From Caldicellulosiruptor kronotskyensis 2002 (lineage in GTDB: Bacteria; Bacillota; Thermoanaerobacteria; Caldicellulosiruptorales; Caldicellulosiruptoraceae), in contig NC_014720.1 in the NCBI RefSeq assembly GCF_000166775.1, forward strand, positions 1,172,501 to 1,236,500: a stretch of DNA of 64,000 nucleotides, written 5' to 3'. Made by a program: the position numbers and the translations under genes. The stretch's first letter is position 1. Each line of letters opens with the position of its first letter. Shown piece by piece: positions 10,080 through 16,529 of this stretch. The notes below the pieces were generated by a model. That model did no database searches and had not been told where the DNA came from. It was given only the letters and a program-made list of their open reading frames with translations.

Positions 10080-10108
10080 TTGCCAGATGAGAAGTTTTCT
10101 GATATACT
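10080..10108 (+). promoter_or_regulatory. Sigma-A promoter of the trp operon
   Basis: TTGCCA (10080-10085), a 17-nt spacer, then TATACT (10103-10108). Transcription should start near 10115, giving a leader of about 160 nt before the attenuator terminator. It lies only 10 nt after the pepP stop. Confidence 0.75.
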
Positions 10109-10171
10109 TAAAAATAGGAATAGCTTTAGGCTTTAGAGAGCTTAGAAAGATCATTTTTTTAAGCTTGTAAA

Positions 10172-10224
10172 AAGCTTAGAAGAGATGAGAAAAGAAGAGA
10201 ATAGAAGAGATGAGAGGAGATGAG
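10172..10224 (+). promoter_or_regulatory. TRAP-type binding site: eleven NAG triplets at exact 5-nt period
   Basis: Triplets begin at 10172, 10177, 10182, 10187, 10192, 10197, 10202, 10207, 10212, 10217 and 10222. They read AAG, UAG, GAG, GAG, AAG, GAG, UAG, GAG, GAG, GAG, GAG, each separated by two bases. TRAP (MtrB) is an 11-subunit ring that binds eleven (G/U)AG triplets spaced by 2-3 nt when loaded with tryptophan. The count, spacing and location before trpE all match. The last triplets overlap the antiterminator and the trpE Shine-Dalgarno. No mtrB gene lies in this window. Confidence 0.85.
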
Positions 10225-10280
10225 CTGTAAAATGAAAAAGGTGGCAAACGTGCGCCCCGATAGCTCATCGGGGCTTTTTT
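10219..10280 (+). terminator. trp attenuator: antiterminator/terminator switch
   Basis: The terminator has an 8-bp stem GCCCCGAT (10254-10261)/ATCGGGGC (10267-10274), loop AGCTC, and six T (10275-10280). The competing helix pairs GATGAGCTGT (10219-10228) with ATAGCTCATC (10260-10269) and would destroy the terminator. Its 5' arm contains the last TRAP triplet. With TRAP bound the arm is sequestered and the terminator forms; without tryptophan the antiterminator allows read-through. The logic is that of the B. subtilis trp leader. Confidence 0.85.
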
Positions 10281-11605
10281 GTTATCATGATATTAGAAAT
10301 AGTATACCTTTCTTTGAAGAATATTCAAACTATTCAATTGACCTATCAAATATAGATTTTGATTCAATCGTAGAGGATTTCTTTTTCTTTGAAAATTCCC
10401 AGATGGTAGCATTTTGCCTTGATAGGCTTTTGTGTGTTACAGTTTACCGTGACAGGATCGAGATTGATTTTGAAGGAACTAAAGATGTTTTCTTTGAGGA
10501 TATTCCTGCAATGCTTGATAGTATATTGGAAATCTTAATTCGAAAGAATGCTTATATCACCTGTCAGTTTAACTACCATGCGGTAAATCTGTTAGAAGAC
10601 ATATATTTAACTGACAGTCCTTATATAGTTTTAAATGTTTACAGAAAAAATGTGTTTGTTGACAAACTTACAGGCAAGAAAACTCTTTTGGTAAGTAGCA
10701 AAGAATTTGAAAAAGCTGCTGCAATAAATTTAAAGAAGTATCAAAGAACTTTGTTTGATATAAAAAGCAATGTGGTCTTTTCGACTCCAAAAGAGTACTT
10801 TATCAGCACTGTCAAGCAGGCAAAAGAGGATATCAGAAATGGTGAGATTTTTCAGATTGTTCTGTCTCAAATAATAATGGTCAAAAGCAATATATCGACA
10901 AACCATCTTTTTTACACAATGAAAGAGAGAAATCCTTCAGAGTACAGCATTGTGATAAACAATGAAGAAAGCCAAATAATTTGTTTTTCGCCAGAGACTC
11001 TTATAAAGAAAAAAGGAAACACAGTAAAGACATTTCCAATTGCAGGAACGTACAGGATAAACGAAGGCGATGATATTGCCCAGAAAAAGATTGAGATACT
11101 GAAAGACAAAAAAGAGATAAGTGAACATGTCATGCTTGTTGACCTTGCGCGAAATGACCTTGGCAGGATTTCAAAACCCGGGACTGTAAAAGTAGAAGAG
11201 TACTTGAGAATAAAAAGGCTTTATAATCTCATTCATATATATTCAGTTGTAACAGGTGAACTTGAAGAAAAGAGCCTCACAAAAACGATACTATCTGTTT
11301 TTCCGGCCGGGACGCTGACCGGCGCACCAAAGATAAGAGCTATGCAGCTAATTGAAAAGTACGAAAGGCAGAGAAGAGATCTTTACGGAGGAGCAATTGG
11401 ATATATCTACAAAGACCAGTTTGACCTTGCCATAGCTATAAGAATGGCTGTGAAGGACAAAAAGGAAAGCATTATCAAGCTTCAAAGTGGTGCGGGAATT
11501 GTAAATTTGTCAGTGCCAGAGAATGAGTATCAGGAGTGTTTGACCAAGCTCAGAGCGTTTTTGAGGATAATGGAGGTGAACGAGGATGATATTGTTAATA
11601 GATAA
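10232..11605 (+). CDS. trpE: Anthranilate synthase component I
   Basis: About 457 residues. It makes anthranilate from chorismate using ammonia delivered by TrpG. The chorismate-binding C-terminal half shows IFQIVLSQ, SPETLIK, FPIAGTYR, VDLARNDLGR, AGTLTGAPKIRAMQLI, YGGAIGYI and QSGAGIV. The N-terminal domain is divergent and short. No ATG, GTG or TTG follows the attenuator in frame before about codon 50, and there is no ribosome-binding site there, so translation must start at 10232 (GGAG 12 nt upstream) or at 10220. The attenuator hairpin is therefore inside the coding region. Confidence 0.9.
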   Translation: MKKVANVRPDSSSGLFCYHDIRNSIPFFEEYSNYSIDLSNIDFDSIVEDFFFFENSQMVAFCLDRLLCVTVYRDRIEIDFEGTKDVFFEDIPAMLDSILEILIRKNAYITCQFNYHAVNLLEDIYLTDSPYIVLNVYRKNVFVDKLTGKKTLLVSSKEFEKAAAINLKKYQRTLFDIKSNVVFSTPKEYFISTVKQAKEDIRNGEIFQIVLSQIIMVKSNISTNHLFYTMKERNPSEYSIVINNEESQIICFSPETLIKKKGNTVKTFPIAGTYRINEGDDIAQKKIEILKDKKEISEHVMLVDLARNDLGRISKPGTVKVEEYLRIKRLYNLIHIYSVVTGELEEKSLTKTILSVFPAGTLTGAPKIRAMQLIEKYERQRRDLYGGAIGYIYKDQFDLAIAIRMAVKDKKESIIKLQSGAGIVNLSVPENEYQECLTKLRAFLRIMEVNEDDIVNR

Positions 11606-12197
11606 CTATGACTCTTTTACGTTTAATCTTTACCAGATGATTGCAAGTAAAGCAAAGGTTTTGGTGTTCAGAAACGACAAGGTTACAGTTGATACAATAA
11701 AAAAGTTAAATCCGGCTGGTATAATAATTTCTCCGGGTCCTGGCAGTCCAAAAGATGCGGGTGTGAGCAAAGAGGTTGTAAATACATTTGCGGGTAGTAT
11801 TCCAATCTTGGGTGTGTGCCTTGGTCATCAGGTGATTGGAGAATGTTTTGGAGCACGAGTAATTCATGCAAAGACAATTTACCATGGAATGAGATCGAGG
11901 GTTGACCTGCTTGAAAGCGGGAAAAGAAGCAGACTTTTTAAAGGTGTGCCAGAGAGATTTTTTGCAGGAAGGTACCATTCACTTGTGGTTGAGAAATCTT
12001 CGTCTTTAAAACAGCTTGAGATAGCTGCTGTGAGTGAAGATGATGAGGTCATGTCCTTGGTAAATGATAACTTGAGAGTCTATGGGATTCAGTTTCATCC
12101 TGAGTCAATCCTGACTCCTGATGGCGAGACAATTATTCAAAACTTTTTAGAAATATGCTATGATGGGGTGGAAAAAGATGCTCATCGATGTGCTTGA
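11586..12197 (+). CDS. trpG: Anthranilate synthase component II (glutamine amidotransferase)
   Basis: 203 residues, class I amidotransferase that feeds ammonia to TrpE. The oxyanion motif is [11 protein letters not shown] (49-59). The nucleophile Cys78 lies in GVCLGHQ, and the catalytic His171 and Glu173 in QFHPESI. It overlaps trpE by 20 nt, so the two subunits are translationally coupled. The short length and lack of a PabA-specific partner in the operon support a dedicated tryptophan role. Confidence 0.95.
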
Positions 12198-13188
12198 GCT
12201 TGTGACAAACAAAAAGGATTTGGAATATGACCAGGTAAAAAATCTTCTTGACAATATCTTGGAAGGAGAACTTGATGAGATAAAGTTTGGTGCATTTTTG
12301 GCAGCGCTAAAAACAAAGGGTGAAACAGAAAAAGAAATTTCGGCATTTGTTGATGCCTTTTATGACAAGGCAAAAAAACTCAACTTTGACCATCAAGCTA
12401 CAATTGATACATGTGGAACAGGTGGCGATGGAAAAGGCACATTTAACATCTCAACAGCTGCAGCTATTGTCCTTAGCTGTTTTGACGTAAAAGTAGCAAA
12501 ACATGGTAACAGAAGCATTACAAGCAACTCAGGCTCAGCTGATATCTTAGAAAAACTTGGAATTGATATTCAAGCTGAGGAAGATAAAATTTTAGAAGGG
12601 CTTGAGAAACTCAACTTTGCGTTTTTATTTGCACCACTGTATCATCCTGCTATGAAAAAGGTTGCAAATTTAAGAAGATCACTTGGTATCAGAACTGTTT
12701 TTAACATCTTAGGTCCGCTTTTGAACCCTGTACCACTTAAATATCAGGTTGTTGGGACATTCAGCTTTGATGCGCAGGATAAAGTGGCTTCTGTGTTAAG
12801 AGGCAAGAGAAAAAAAGCTGCTGTCATACATAGTCTTGACGGGCTTGACGAGATTTCCATTTCTCAAAAGACAAGGGTGCTTGAGATACAAGACAAGAAT
12901 CTCAGAGAATATTATATTGACCCAAAAGACTATGGAATTGAATTTGATACAAGCTCAATTAGAGGCTTTTCGCCTGAAGAAAATGCAAGGATTTTGATAA
13001 GTGTGCTTGAGGGAGAAAAATCGCCTTATTTTTGGGCTGTTGTTTTAAATTGTGGATTTGCACTTTACATTTGTGAGGTTGCAAAAGATGTTGAAGAAGG
13101 AATTAAGCTTTCCTCAAAAGCAATCGAGAGCAAAGAAGCTTATTTAAAGCTCAAAGACTTGCAGCAGTTTTATAAATCGGGAGTGTAA
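12178..13188 (+). CDS. trpD: Anthranilate phosphoribosyltransferase
   Basis: Transfers phosphoribosyl from PRPP to anthranilate. 336 residues from the ATG at 12178, which has GGGGTGG upstream and gives the same 20-nt overlap with trpG that trpG has with trpE; an in-frame ATG at 12160 is less likely. Conserved motifs are [16 protein letters not shown] (PRPP diphosphate loop), [21 protein letters not shown] and NILGPLLNP. Third gene of the operon. Confidence 0.94.
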
Positions 13189-13194
13189 TTAAAA

Positions 13195-13977
13195 ATGAGT
13201 GTGCTTGAGCGTATCTTGAGCTATAAAAAGGAAGAGGTTGAAAAGTGCAAAAATCTCATACCTGTTGAGAAAATGAAGAAACTTGCAGTTGAGAAGATTA
13301 AAGGTGGCTATTCGGAAAACAGGTTCAAAAGAATATTCAAAAAAGATAAATTCTGTATAATTGGTGAAATAAAAAGAGCATCACCATCGGAGGGTGTAAT
13401 ATCAGAGGATGCTAATGCAAAAGCAATAGCAAAGATGTATGAAGATTTAGGGTTTTTTGCCATATCAGTTTTGACAGAAAGATTTTTTTTCAAGGGTTCA
13501 GAACAAGATTTGATGGAAGTAAAAAAAGTGGTATCTCTGCCTGTGCTAAGAAAAGACTTTATCATTGATATCTGGCAGCTTTACCAGACAAAGATGATAG
13601 GCGCAGACGCAGCTTTGCTTATCACAAAAGCTTTGTCAGAGAAGCAGCTTGCAATATTTATTAAGATTTTGGAAATTCTTGACATAGTACCGCTTGTTGA
13701 GGTTGAAAATGAATATGAAATTGAAAAAGCTTTGAAGTGTGGTGCAAAACTCATAGGAATCAACAACAGAAACTTAGATGATTTGTCCATCGACATAACA
13801 AAGACAGAAAGGCTTTTGAAGTATATTCCAAAGGAAGTCGCTGTGATAAGCGAAAGTGGAATTAAGACAAAAGAGGATTTTGACTATATTCTCTCGCTCG
13901 GTGTTGATGGATGTTTGATAGGGACATCTTTTATGAAATCGCAAAATCCGCTTGAAATAATTGGTGATAGGATATGA
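13195..13977 (+). CDS. trpC: Indole-3-glycerol-phosphate synthase
   Basis: 260-residue TIM barrel that closes the indole ring from CdRP. Motifs: IGEIKRASPSEG (catalytic Lys), VLTERFFFKGS, VLRKDFIID (catalytic Lys), LVEVENEYE, IGINNRNL, ISESGI and GCLIGTSFM (phosphate binding). A run of eight T (13483-13490) lies inside the gene and the frame is intact, useful when judging frameshifts elsewhere in the window. It overlaps trpF by 4 nt. Confidence 0.95.
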   Translation: MSVLERILSYKKEEVEKCKNLIPVEKMKKLAVEKIKGGYSENRFKRIFKKDKFCIIGEIKRASPSEGVISEDANAKAIAKMYEDLGFFAISVLTERFFFKGSEQDLMEVKKVVSLPVLRKDFIIDIWQLYQTKMIGADAALLITKALSEKQLAIFIKILEILDIVPLVEVENEYEIEKALKCGAKLIGINNRNLDDLSIDITKTERLLKYIPKEVAVISESGIKTKEDFDYILSLGVDGCLIGTSFMKSQNPLEIIGDRI

Positions 13978-14588
13978 TAGTAAAGTTTTGCGGGCTAAAG
14001 AGGCTTGTTGACATTGAGATGTGCAATAAACTTCAGCCTGATATGATAGGCTTAATATTTGCTCAAAGTCCGAGAAAGGTTGAAAAAGACCTTGCAAAAG
14101 ATATTGTTTTAGCTAAAAGTCCTTCAATAAAATCAGTTGGAGTTTTCAAGGACCAAAACATATCAGAGGTTATAAAAATAGCGACTTATCTTCAACTTGA
14201 CTTTGTGCAGCTGCACGGCAAAGAAAATTATGAATATATAAAGCATTTGAAAGACCTTGGATTTAGGGTCATAAAGGCTATTGAAGTTGAAAGACAACAA
14301 GATTTAATAGAAGCTAAACGCTATACAGAAATAGCTGACTTTGTGCTTCTTGACAGACCAAAAGGCAGTAGTTTGGATATCACAGAGGTTGCAAAACTTG
14401 CTGACTTTGGTTATATCATTGCAGGTGGAATAACACCTGAAAATATAGATAAATACCTAAATCTAAATCCAATTGGGATTGACATCAGCTCAGGAATTGA
14501 GACAAATGGTTTCAAAGATTTTACAAAGATGAAAAAGATTATTGAAAAAGTAAATAAACACAAGGTTGGTGAAACAAAAAATGGATAG
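13974..14588 (+). CDS. trpF: Phosphoribosylanthranilate isomerase
   Basis: 204-residue TIM barrel that isomerises PRA to CdRP, the step before TrpC. Catalytic Cys lies in KFCGLKR (about 4-10), followed by VGVFKDQ, VQLHGKE, the catalytic Asp region LLDRPKGSS, and the phosphate-binding [10 protein letters not shown] and [12 protein letters not shown]. It is separate from trpC here, unlike in enterobacteria. The start overlaps trpC by 4 nt and its end overlaps trpB by 8 nt. Confidence 0.95.
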
Positions 14589-15762
14589 GTATTTTGGAAG
14601 GTTTGGTGGAATGTATGCCCCAGAAACTCTTATGCCAGCTCTTTTAGAGATAGAAGAAGAGTTTTGCAAGCTTGTGAATGACGAAAAATTCAATCAAGAG
14701 TATGAGTACTATCTCAAAAACTATGTTGGAAGACCATCGCCACTTTACTTTGCCAAAAACTTGAGCGATCATCTTGGAGTTAAAATATATCTCAAAAGAG
14801 AAGACCTGAACCACACCGGTGCACACAAGATAAACAACTGCATTGGTCAGGCACTTTTGGCAAAGCATATGGGTAAAAAAAGACTTATTGCCGAGACAGG
14901 AGCTGGTCAGCACGGTGTTGCGACGGCTACAGTTGCTGCTCTTTTTGGGATGGAATGTGAGATATTTATGGGTGAAGAGGATGCAAAAAGGCAGTTTCAT
15001 AACGTGCAGAGGATGAAAATGCTTGGCAGTAAGGTAAGAGTAGTTAGTAAGGGAAGCAAGACATTAAAAGATGCAATAAACGAGGCAATGCGTGACTGGA
15101 GCGAGACCTTTGAATATACCTTTTACCTTTTTGGTACAGCTGCAGGACCTCATCCGTTCCCAACAATTGTAAAATACTTTCAAAGTGTGATTGGGAAAGA
15201 GACAAAAGATCAGATAATAAAGCTTGAAGGAAAACTTCCAGACTATATCTTTGCATGTGTAGGTGGTGGTTCTAATGCAATTGGTATCTTCTCAGCATTT
15301 TTGGAAGATCATGAGGTAAAGCTTATCGGTGTTGAGGGTGCAGGAGAGGGGATACATACAGGTAAAACGGCTGCGACGCTATGTAGCGGGTCTGTCGGAA
15401 TCTTGCACGGTGCTAAAACGTATATTTTACAGGATGAGGAAGGGCAAATTCTAAACACACATTCGATCTCAGCAGGACTTGACTACCCTGGTGTTGGACC
15501 TGAACATGCGTATTTGAAAGAGACAGGAAGAGTTGAGTATGTGGGGGCTACTGATAAAGAAGCTGTGGATGCATTTTTGCTGCTCACAAGGCTTGAAGGG
15601 ATAATTCCGGCGCTGGAGTCAAGTCATGCTCTTGCAGAGGTTATTAAAAGGGCGAAAATGGGACTGTTTAAAACCAGTGACATTGTTGTTGTGAACCTTT
15701 CTGGAAGAGGTGATAAGGATATAAACACAGTACTTGAGCTTTGGAAGGATGATGAGATATGA
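14581..15762 (+). CDS. trpB: Tryptophan synthase beta chain
   Basis: 393 residues, PLP enzyme that joins indole and serine. N-terminal [19 protein letters not shown] lysine Lys83 in [21 protein letters not shown]; phosphate-binding GGGSNAIG; C-terminal LSGRGDKD. This is the TrpB1 type that pairs with TrpA. The ATG at 14581 (AAGGTTGGTG upstream) is preferred to the in-frame ATG at 14566 because homologues begin at this point. It overlaps trpF by 8 nt and trpA by 4 nt. Confidence 0.95.
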
Positions 15763-16529
15763 ATTTAATAGATGAAAGATTTGAAAAGCTAAAAAAAGAG
15801 GGAAAAAAAGCTTTCATAGGCTATGTTACGTTTGGGTATCCAACTTTTGAAGAAACACTTTGGTTTATAAAGCTTGTATATTCATATGTAGACATTTTAG
15901 AGATTGGTTTTCCTTTTTCTGACCCTATTGCAGATGGAGAAATTATTCAAAAAGCTTCTATAAAAGCTCTCAGTGAAGGTGTCAAATTGAGCCACCTTTT
16001 TGAAAGCATTGAAAAGTTTAAAAAAGATAAGCCGGTTGTGCTAATGTTGTATGCAAACACAGTTTACAAAAAGGGAATTGATAGGTTTTTTGAAAGTTGC
16101 AAAGCTTGCGGTGTGGATGGCGTGATAATCCCAGATGTTTCGTTTGAAGAGAGCTTTGAGTTTAAAGAATCAGCTGAAAAGTTTGGTGTTACTTATATTG
16201 ACCTTGTATCAATATCTTCTCTTGAGAGAGCAAAAATGATAGGTAGGCAGAGCCGCGGTTTTTTGTATTGTGTTTCAAGAAAAGGCGTGACAGGTTTCAA
16301 AGGGCAGATTGATGATAGAATCTTTACTTTTCTAAAAGAACTGAAAACCGTTACATCAACACCTTTGGCAGTTGGATTTGGTATAAAGAGTAAAGAAGAT
16401 GTTCAGAAGTTCAAAGACCTTGCAGATGGTATTGTCATTGGAAGCGCAATAATCACAAAGATAGATGAAGGAAAAGACAAGCTTGAAGATTTTTTGAAAG
16501 AAATCTCTGAAAGTCTAAAACACAAATAA
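15759..16529 (+). CDS. trpA: Tryptophan synthase alpha chain
   Basis: 256-residue TIM barrel that releases indole from indole-3-glycerol phosphate. The catalytic pair is Glu48 ([12 protein letters not shown]) and Asp59 (IADG). Phosphate-binding elements are GVTGFKG and VGFGI...GSAI. Last gene of the seven-gene trp operon; a strong terminator follows within 10 nt. Confidence 0.95.

Follow-up and report, generated by a model that had tools for sequence, protein, structure and literature searches.

The regulation of the trp operon in Gram-positive bacteria has been treated mainly in subscription papers. The B. subtilis trpEDCFBA operon is controlled by TRAP through 11 (G/U)AG triplets, and the antiterminator that TRAP excludes is mutually exclusive with the terminator (PMC4027176, PMC4347634); transcripts terminate ahead of the structural genes, and a separate leader structure sequesters the ribosome-binding site (RBS) (PMC4027176, PMC3913778). 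At B. subtilis trpP (yhaG) and trpG, TRAP directly covers the RBS, for which one overlapping repeat is enough (PMC4347634). In the SAM-II riboswitch of S. meliloti metA, a validated terminator separates two in-frame codons, AUG1 and AUG2, of which the second is the translation start (PMC9373788).

Here we analyze a window (the whole stretch of DNA under study, 64,000 nucleotides) from Caldicellulosiruptor kronotskyensis 2002 and compare it with 12 family relatives, 11 of the same genus and one of a sister genus (G012). The trp operon in the window resembles B. subtilis trpEDCFBA in its TRAP gene, its 11 triplets, a predicted TRAP-blocked antiterminator and an exclusive terminator, and differs from it in that the terminator appears to lie inside trpE, the RBS is contained in the array and anti-TRAP was not found in the 13 family genomes. 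As at trpP and trpG, the RBS is predicted to be covered directly by TRAP. The trpP (yhaG) and trpG sites are not known to have an attenuator, whereas the array in the window is proposed to do both, attenuation and RBS masking. The locus shares with metA a terminator downstream of an in-frame AUG, but its regulator is TRAP rather than a riboswitch, and no SD-bearing start codon follows close after the terminator. We read the locus as a TRAP-regulated trp operon in which a single binding site probably serves two controls and the terminator lies within trpE (probability about 0.85). It is this predicted architecture that is new; TRAP attenuation and direct RBS blocking are already established. 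The searched literature, which covered few subscription papers, gave no account of TRAP in Caldicellulosiruptor or of a TRAP terminator inside trpE. The features of the locus are as follows:

10080–10108, plus strand: predicted promoter TTGCCA-17-TATACT (10/12 consensus bases), with transcription probably starting at ~10115
10172–10224, plus strand: putative TRAP-binding array of 11 NAG triplets (sequence, shuffles, genome-wide pattern search, 13/13 family genomes)
10212–10219, plus strand: predicted ribosome-binding site GAGAGGAG, made of array triplets 9 and 10 plus the intervening bases
10219–10228, plus strand: predicted antiterminator 5′ strand, overlapping the array end and pairing with 10260–10269
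10232–11605, plus strand: trpE coding sequence (frame open in 13/13; Pfam PF00425 Chorismate_bind), ATG 10232 being the likely start
10254–10280, plus strand: predicted intrinsic terminator, stem 10254–10274 and U tract 10275–10280, at a position common to 13/13
10260–10269, plus strand: predicted antiterminator 3′ strand, also part of the terminator (alignment, predicted folding)
11586–12197, plus strand: trpG, second operon gene (PF00117; TIGR00566 above cut-off)
12160–16529, plus strand: trpD, trpC, trpF, trpB and trpA (open reading frames named by eye from translations)

The array has a strict 5-nt period with two bases after each triplet; the triplets start at 10172, 10177, 10182, 10187, 10192, 10197, 10202, 10207, 10212, 10217 and 10222 and read, in order, AAG TAG GAG GAG AAG GAG TAG GAG GAG GAG GAG. 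The count, the composition (7 GAG, 2 TAG, 2 AAG) and the two-base spacing are all as an earlier note on this DNA had claimed. We looked for 9–11 NAG triplets with ~2-nt spacers upstream of trpE, and the window holds 11 at period 5. A pattern of eleven AG at period 5 has one zero-mismatch match in the 64-kb window; when up to 3 mismatches are allowed there are 4 matches, all of them shifted readings of the same array, and the pattern was found in 0/100 dinucleotide-preserving shuffles of the window. Two looser patterns gave 5 and 5 matches in the whole genome, again all shifted readings, and the array is the sole one of its type found there. A reversed-pattern control was uninformative for these searches because the GAG-rich array matches the reversed pattern too. 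Rfam, at gathering thresholds, gave no match anywhere in the trp leader.

A TRAP-type array lies upstream of trpE in 13/13 family genomes, and in G012 of the sister genus it consists of 7 TAG and 3 GAG with the period still kept. A constant 5-nt period in relatives, which the earlier note had proposed to look for, is borne out by the 11/13 genomes in which it is unbroken and departed from in two, each with a single 6-nt step (G003 and G009, runs of 6+4). The number eleven fares less well: it is exact in the window, but among the 12 relatives a strict run of exactly eleven recurs in G007 alone. As strict runs range from 8 to 11 across 11 family genomes, with only 8 in three relatives, and stand at 6+4 in the other two, "exactly eleven" is ruled out as a constraint.

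The possibility that TRAP is absent from the genome is ruled out by a profile search for mtrB, a check that the earlier note had called for: one gene is present, at G000:C1:1609250-1609453 (PF02081, E 4.2e-38). In 14 control genomes PF02081 matched B. subtilis alone. The protein falls in the NCBIfam equivalog NF009724 (137.4 bits vs a cut-off of 117), and its residues 9–80 match solved TRAP chains. The RNA-contacting residues of B. subtilis TRAP are Glu36, Lys37, Lys56 and Arg58 (PMC4027176), and E41, K42, K61 and R63 are identical to them in the alignment (numbering hand-counted). The neighbours of mtrB are a dnaE-like gene on one side and a small DUF2007-like gene on the other (PF09413, 23.1 bits, under the cut-off of 25.7), past which lie pfkA-like and pyk-like genes (names read from translations). 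mtrB is present in 13/13 family genomes and in 24/61 over the whole sample; the profile search found none in 24 other genomes of the class. The presence of mtrB and the uniqueness of the array in the genome, with both array and gene in 13/13 family genomes, support the earlier reading of a TRAP-controlled trp attenuator; neither of the two findings that the earlier note had said would overturn it, a genome without mtrB or a triplet period lost in close relatives, was made. That note had also seen the case as an extension of TRAP beyond Bacillus; as mtrB occurs in 199/398 sampled phylum genomes, TRAP beyond Bacillus is common in the phylum and the taxonomic extension is not news. In B. subtilis, anti-TRAP antagonises the TRAP ring (PMC4347634). 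The search for rtpA (anti-TRAP) that the earlier note had suggested, made with PF15777, found it in 0/13 family genomes; the same profile matched in 4/14 control genomes, B. subtilis among those.

In several genomes a TRAP-family gene lies close to a TRAP array. G056 has two TRAP-family matches (C7:49982-50182 and C29:85806-86000), one of them ~100 nt before the trp leader array. mtrB lies directly upstream of the array in G151 (L168:1197-1433, array 1501 onward) and G075 (L169:1192-1422, array 1501 onward), and, by coordinates, directly before a TRAP array in G347 and G405. In all four, trpE is farther downstream of the mtrB–array pair; in G151 a DAHP-synthase-like gene (read from translation) is between array and trpE, and in G075 only a 76-aa frame of such kind. 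In these four genomes the region that TRAP targets begins with the gene for TRAP itself.

Across the phylum, array and regulator are associated. Of 398 genomes, 48 contain eight G/T-AG triplets in an exact array (the genome of the window is not one of them, since the AAG triplets of its array do not fit that pattern), and mtrB is present in 45/48 of these vs 154/350 others (Fisher p 5.6e-12 from hand-counted rows, an optimistic value, as related genomes are counted separately and at least one array genome with mtrB, G139, also shows a simple repeat). The three array genomes without mtrB are G156, G385 and G419, and the matches there resemble simple repeats. Conversely, 154/199 mtrB genomes are without an exact 8-triplet array, a pattern that degenerate or spaced arrays would escape.

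Outside the family we inspected 34 loci with an array, of which the 398-genome pattern scan supplied 30. trpE homology lies downstream in 22/34 and is absent in 12; the trpE frame opens at most 200 nt from the array in 17/22 and farther away in the other five. The TRAP leaders of G038, G053, G071 and G124 are like that of the window in having array, terminator and trpE next to one another, their terminators beginning ~14–31 nt past the array. In all 17 outside-family leaders with a close trpE, however, an in-frame start codon comes after the terminator, unlike in the window's family, where the terminator appears to lie inside trpE. An SD-like word precedes that start, according to a script in 16 leaders and on visual inspection in G064, whose terminator was missed by the last script and found in an earlier scan; G249 has two candidate hairpins, both upstream of the start. 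G158 has an extra in-frame ATG just before the terminator and could in principle be read like the family, which somewhat blurs the contrast between family and outgroups. Among the genomes examined, the embedded terminator looks family-specific, with G158 ambiguous.

Two other arrays point to further candidate targets. In G008 a second TRAP-type array (L050:1501-1542) lies immediately before the gene for an APC-family amino acid permease (ORF L050:1546-2946) and overlaps its SD region, with no terminator adjoining it by eye; it resembles a site at which TRAP would control the translation of a transporter. Such an array occurs in 1/13 family genomes, and for the permease ortholog in the rest of the family only relatives of 25–28% identity were found, in 7/12 genomes. 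In G058 a ten-triplet array (L032:1501-1542) lies in the SD/start region of a methyltransferase-like gene (read by eye), a possible TRAP target.

Upstream of the array, promoter-like sites number 4 in the region vs 1.1 in shuffles, and TTGCCA, TTGTCA or TTGCAA stands 17 nt before TATACT in 11/12 genus members. Folding predicts a stable hairpin at 10117–10176, after the promoter and before the array, with z −3.4 in this genome vs base shuffles; of the 12 genus members measured, G005 has −2.6 and G007 −2.0, and the remaining 9 have values weaker than −1.7. With the hairpin weak in most relatives, a conserved B. subtilis-like 5′ stem-loop is unsupported across the genus. Downstream, trpG is inside the operon, so the predicted TRAP switch would cover it as well; in B. 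subtilis, TRAP regulates trpG at its own RBS (PMC4347634).

The terminator stem has 8 pairs, 6 of them GC, and a loop of 5, followed by TTTTTT, and the 10-bp antiterminator (columns 80–89/121–130 of the 13-genome alignment) uses bases in common with it, so that the two are predicted to be mutually exclusive; both hairpins and their exclusion agree with the earlier description of the locus. In 12/13 family genomes the stem is followed by five or more T without a break, while the T tract of G012 is interrupted (TTTCATTT). Folding was computed from the array to the U tract in the 13 family genomes at 37 °C and at 70 °C, the latter a guess at the growth temperature. At 37 °C the antiterminator has a probability of 0.57–0.99 in the unbound RNA of 12/13 genomes (0.96 in the genome of the window) and is not favoured in G012 (0.00); when the array is constrained to stay single-stranded, mimicking bound TRAP, the terminator forms with 0.96–1.00 in 13/13. 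An antiterminator that overlaps the array and excludes the terminator is thus predicted, and is weak at 70 °C: there the terminator is favoured in the unbound RNA of 10/13 genomes (0.85 vs 0.13 for the antiterminator in the genome of the window). When only the RNA made by the time the antiterminator is complete is considered, this hairpin still folds at 70 °C in 12/13 (−3.9 kcal/mol in the genome of the window). As the 70 °C fold favours the terminator, the antiterminator would have to fold first to win, or would need help.

In the alignment, antiterminator cells are paired in 94.5% vs 24–46% in slid controls, and slid controls for the terminator have 28–51% paired cells, far fewer than the real hairpin; the outer two antiterminator pairs are often non-standard (2 and 4 of 12 sequences). 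Double changes affect two terminator pairs and one antiterminator pair, all from the single sequence of G012, in which one T/A exchange is matched on all three strands that share that base; this exchange is suggestive, short of proof. The covariation score was reached by 7/500 shuffles for the terminator and by 67 to 77/500 for the antiterminator, a modest support.

In 13/13 family genomes the trpE frame extends upstream across the terminator without a stop codon, and the stem occupies +23 to +43 from the A of the ATG 10232 equivalent in every one of them, corresponding in the window to codons 8–15 (RPDSSSGL). ATG 10232, located between array and terminator and with an equivalent in the 12 relatives, is likely the only plausible trpE start codon in the window and these relatives; a further in-frame ATG inside the array (10220) is present in 12/12 genus members and absent from G012, and whichever of the two were used, the start would precede the terminator. 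It is very unlikely, in our judgment, that we are dealing with a plain attenuator of the Bacillus kind whose terminator is untranslated, with TrpE starting downstream at ATA/ATT or a more distant ATG (in the window, codon 58) rather than as MKKVANVRPDSS. S. meliloti metA does start at an AUG past a comparable terminator (PMC9373788), codon 25 is ATA or ATT in 12/13 genomes, and ATG, GTG or TTG is shared by 9/13 at codon 67 and by 7/13 at codon 58, the best-shared later positions. A start at codon 58 or 67, however, would lose a conserved stretch that begins at codon 25 with an I-P motif in 13/13 (I-S in G006, L-P in G002); the first ATG/GTG/TTG after the terminator falls at codons 46–92, so that the stretch from the terminator to codon 46 is free of them in 13/13; and no start-like codon, standard or near-standard, common to 13/13 was found over codons 16–92. 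SD-like words between +44 and +74, able to serve codon 25, occur in 2/13 only (AAGG at +56 in G004 and G011), as opposed to the GAGGAG/AGGAG that precedes the conserved ATG in 13/13 by a rather long 12 nt (10 in G012), within a segment, 10212–10220, that is unchanged throughout the 13-genome alignment. A TrpE query from ATG 10232 aligns from residue 1 in all 12 genus members, the genome of the window included; TrpE of G012 (46% identity) aligns from query residue 9, and 24 nt upstream of that point its frame reaches an ATG. The distance from the ATG to codon 25 shows no length change across two genera, and after the terminator Y18 is kept in 13/13, H19 in 9 and D20 in 10, G012 included. At the nucleotide level the signal of translation is weak: over all pairs of the 12 genus members, substitutions at codon positions 1, 2 and 3 number 77, 21 and 103 in codons 2–7, a modest third-position excess, and 164, 143 and 173 in codons 16–24, with almost no such excess, compared with 248, 167 and 414 in codons 25–50. 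The exact conservation of frame and length across two genera nevertheless favours translation through the terminator. A terminator in an untranslated leader before the trpE start, as in B. subtilis, is in none of the 13 genomes if the conserved ATG is used, nor is there a separate RBS downstream of the terminator, as GAGGAG sits upstream, in the array. The earlier note had taken the element for a leader before trpE; in 13/13 the terminator falls within the frame of trpE, whose RBS is overlapped by the array.

TRAP might act mainly by covering the RBS, the hairpin being a passive remnant or an RNA-stability element. The overlap of SD and array, the weakness of the antiterminator at 70 °C, the interrupted U tract and weak antiterminator of G012, and the permease array of G008, which overlaps an SD with no terminator adjoining by eye, are all consistent with that account, but we consider it unlikely: the terminator hairpin keeps its position in 13/13 genomes, 12 of them with at least 5 uninterrupted T, and the base changes of G012 leave the paired core of both hairpins intact. 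That the array is a chance purine-rich repeat, or an artefact of coding sequence or of an SD in which TRAP plays no part, has next to no chance of being true. The simple-repeat look of the matches in the 3/48 array genomes without mtrB, as in G139, would suit such an origin; against it stand the array–mtrB association over 398 genomes, the G012 array, different in composition with its period intact, and the shuffles, which rule out a chance repeat, in agreement with the earlier note's view that chance was very unlikely.

For a TRAP-regulated operon with one site for two controls, we infer TRAP binding, tryptophan dependence, termination in vivo and the use of the start codon from sequence and comparison, and propose the following course of events. 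When tryptophan is high, loaded TRAP would wrap the nascent RNA at 10172–10224 as the array emerges and keep 10219–10228 off 10260–10269; the terminator at 10254–10280 would then fold, and RNA polymerase would stop after ~16 trpE codons. The same TRAP ring would cover GAGAGGAG at 10212–10219 and mask the RBS, leaving untranslated both the transcripts that escape and the terminated RNAs, which would have a start codon and no stop codon. When tryptophan is low, the array would be free; the antiterminator would form, or a ribosome would occupy the site and melt the terminator, and transcription would continue into the operon, with ribosomes starting at ATG 10232 and reading across the terminator sequence.

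A tentative extension, to which we give an outside chance, is that ribosome and TRAP compete for one stretch of nascent RNA. At high temperature, where the RNA antiterminator is weak, a ribosome that has started at ATG 10232 and advanced into codons 8–15 would serve as the antiterminator, and TRAP would restore termination by excluding it; because terminated RNAs would carry the RBS, AUG and ~16 codons with no stop, TRAP would also keep them from trapping ribosomes. If so, the locus would be a ribosome-coupled attenuator without a leader peptide, using the first codons of a structural gene.

In conclusion, if the proposed architecture is correct, the trp operon of this family would provide a natural test case for the way in which one short nascent transcript is divided among ribosomes, RNA polymerase and an RNA-binding protein ring, as well as for tryptophan control in genomes without a detected anti-TRAP. 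The terminator hairpin would double as coding sequence, constrained both as RNA and as peptide, and a TRAP switch would be compressible into the start of a structural gene, with one site governing termination as well as translation.
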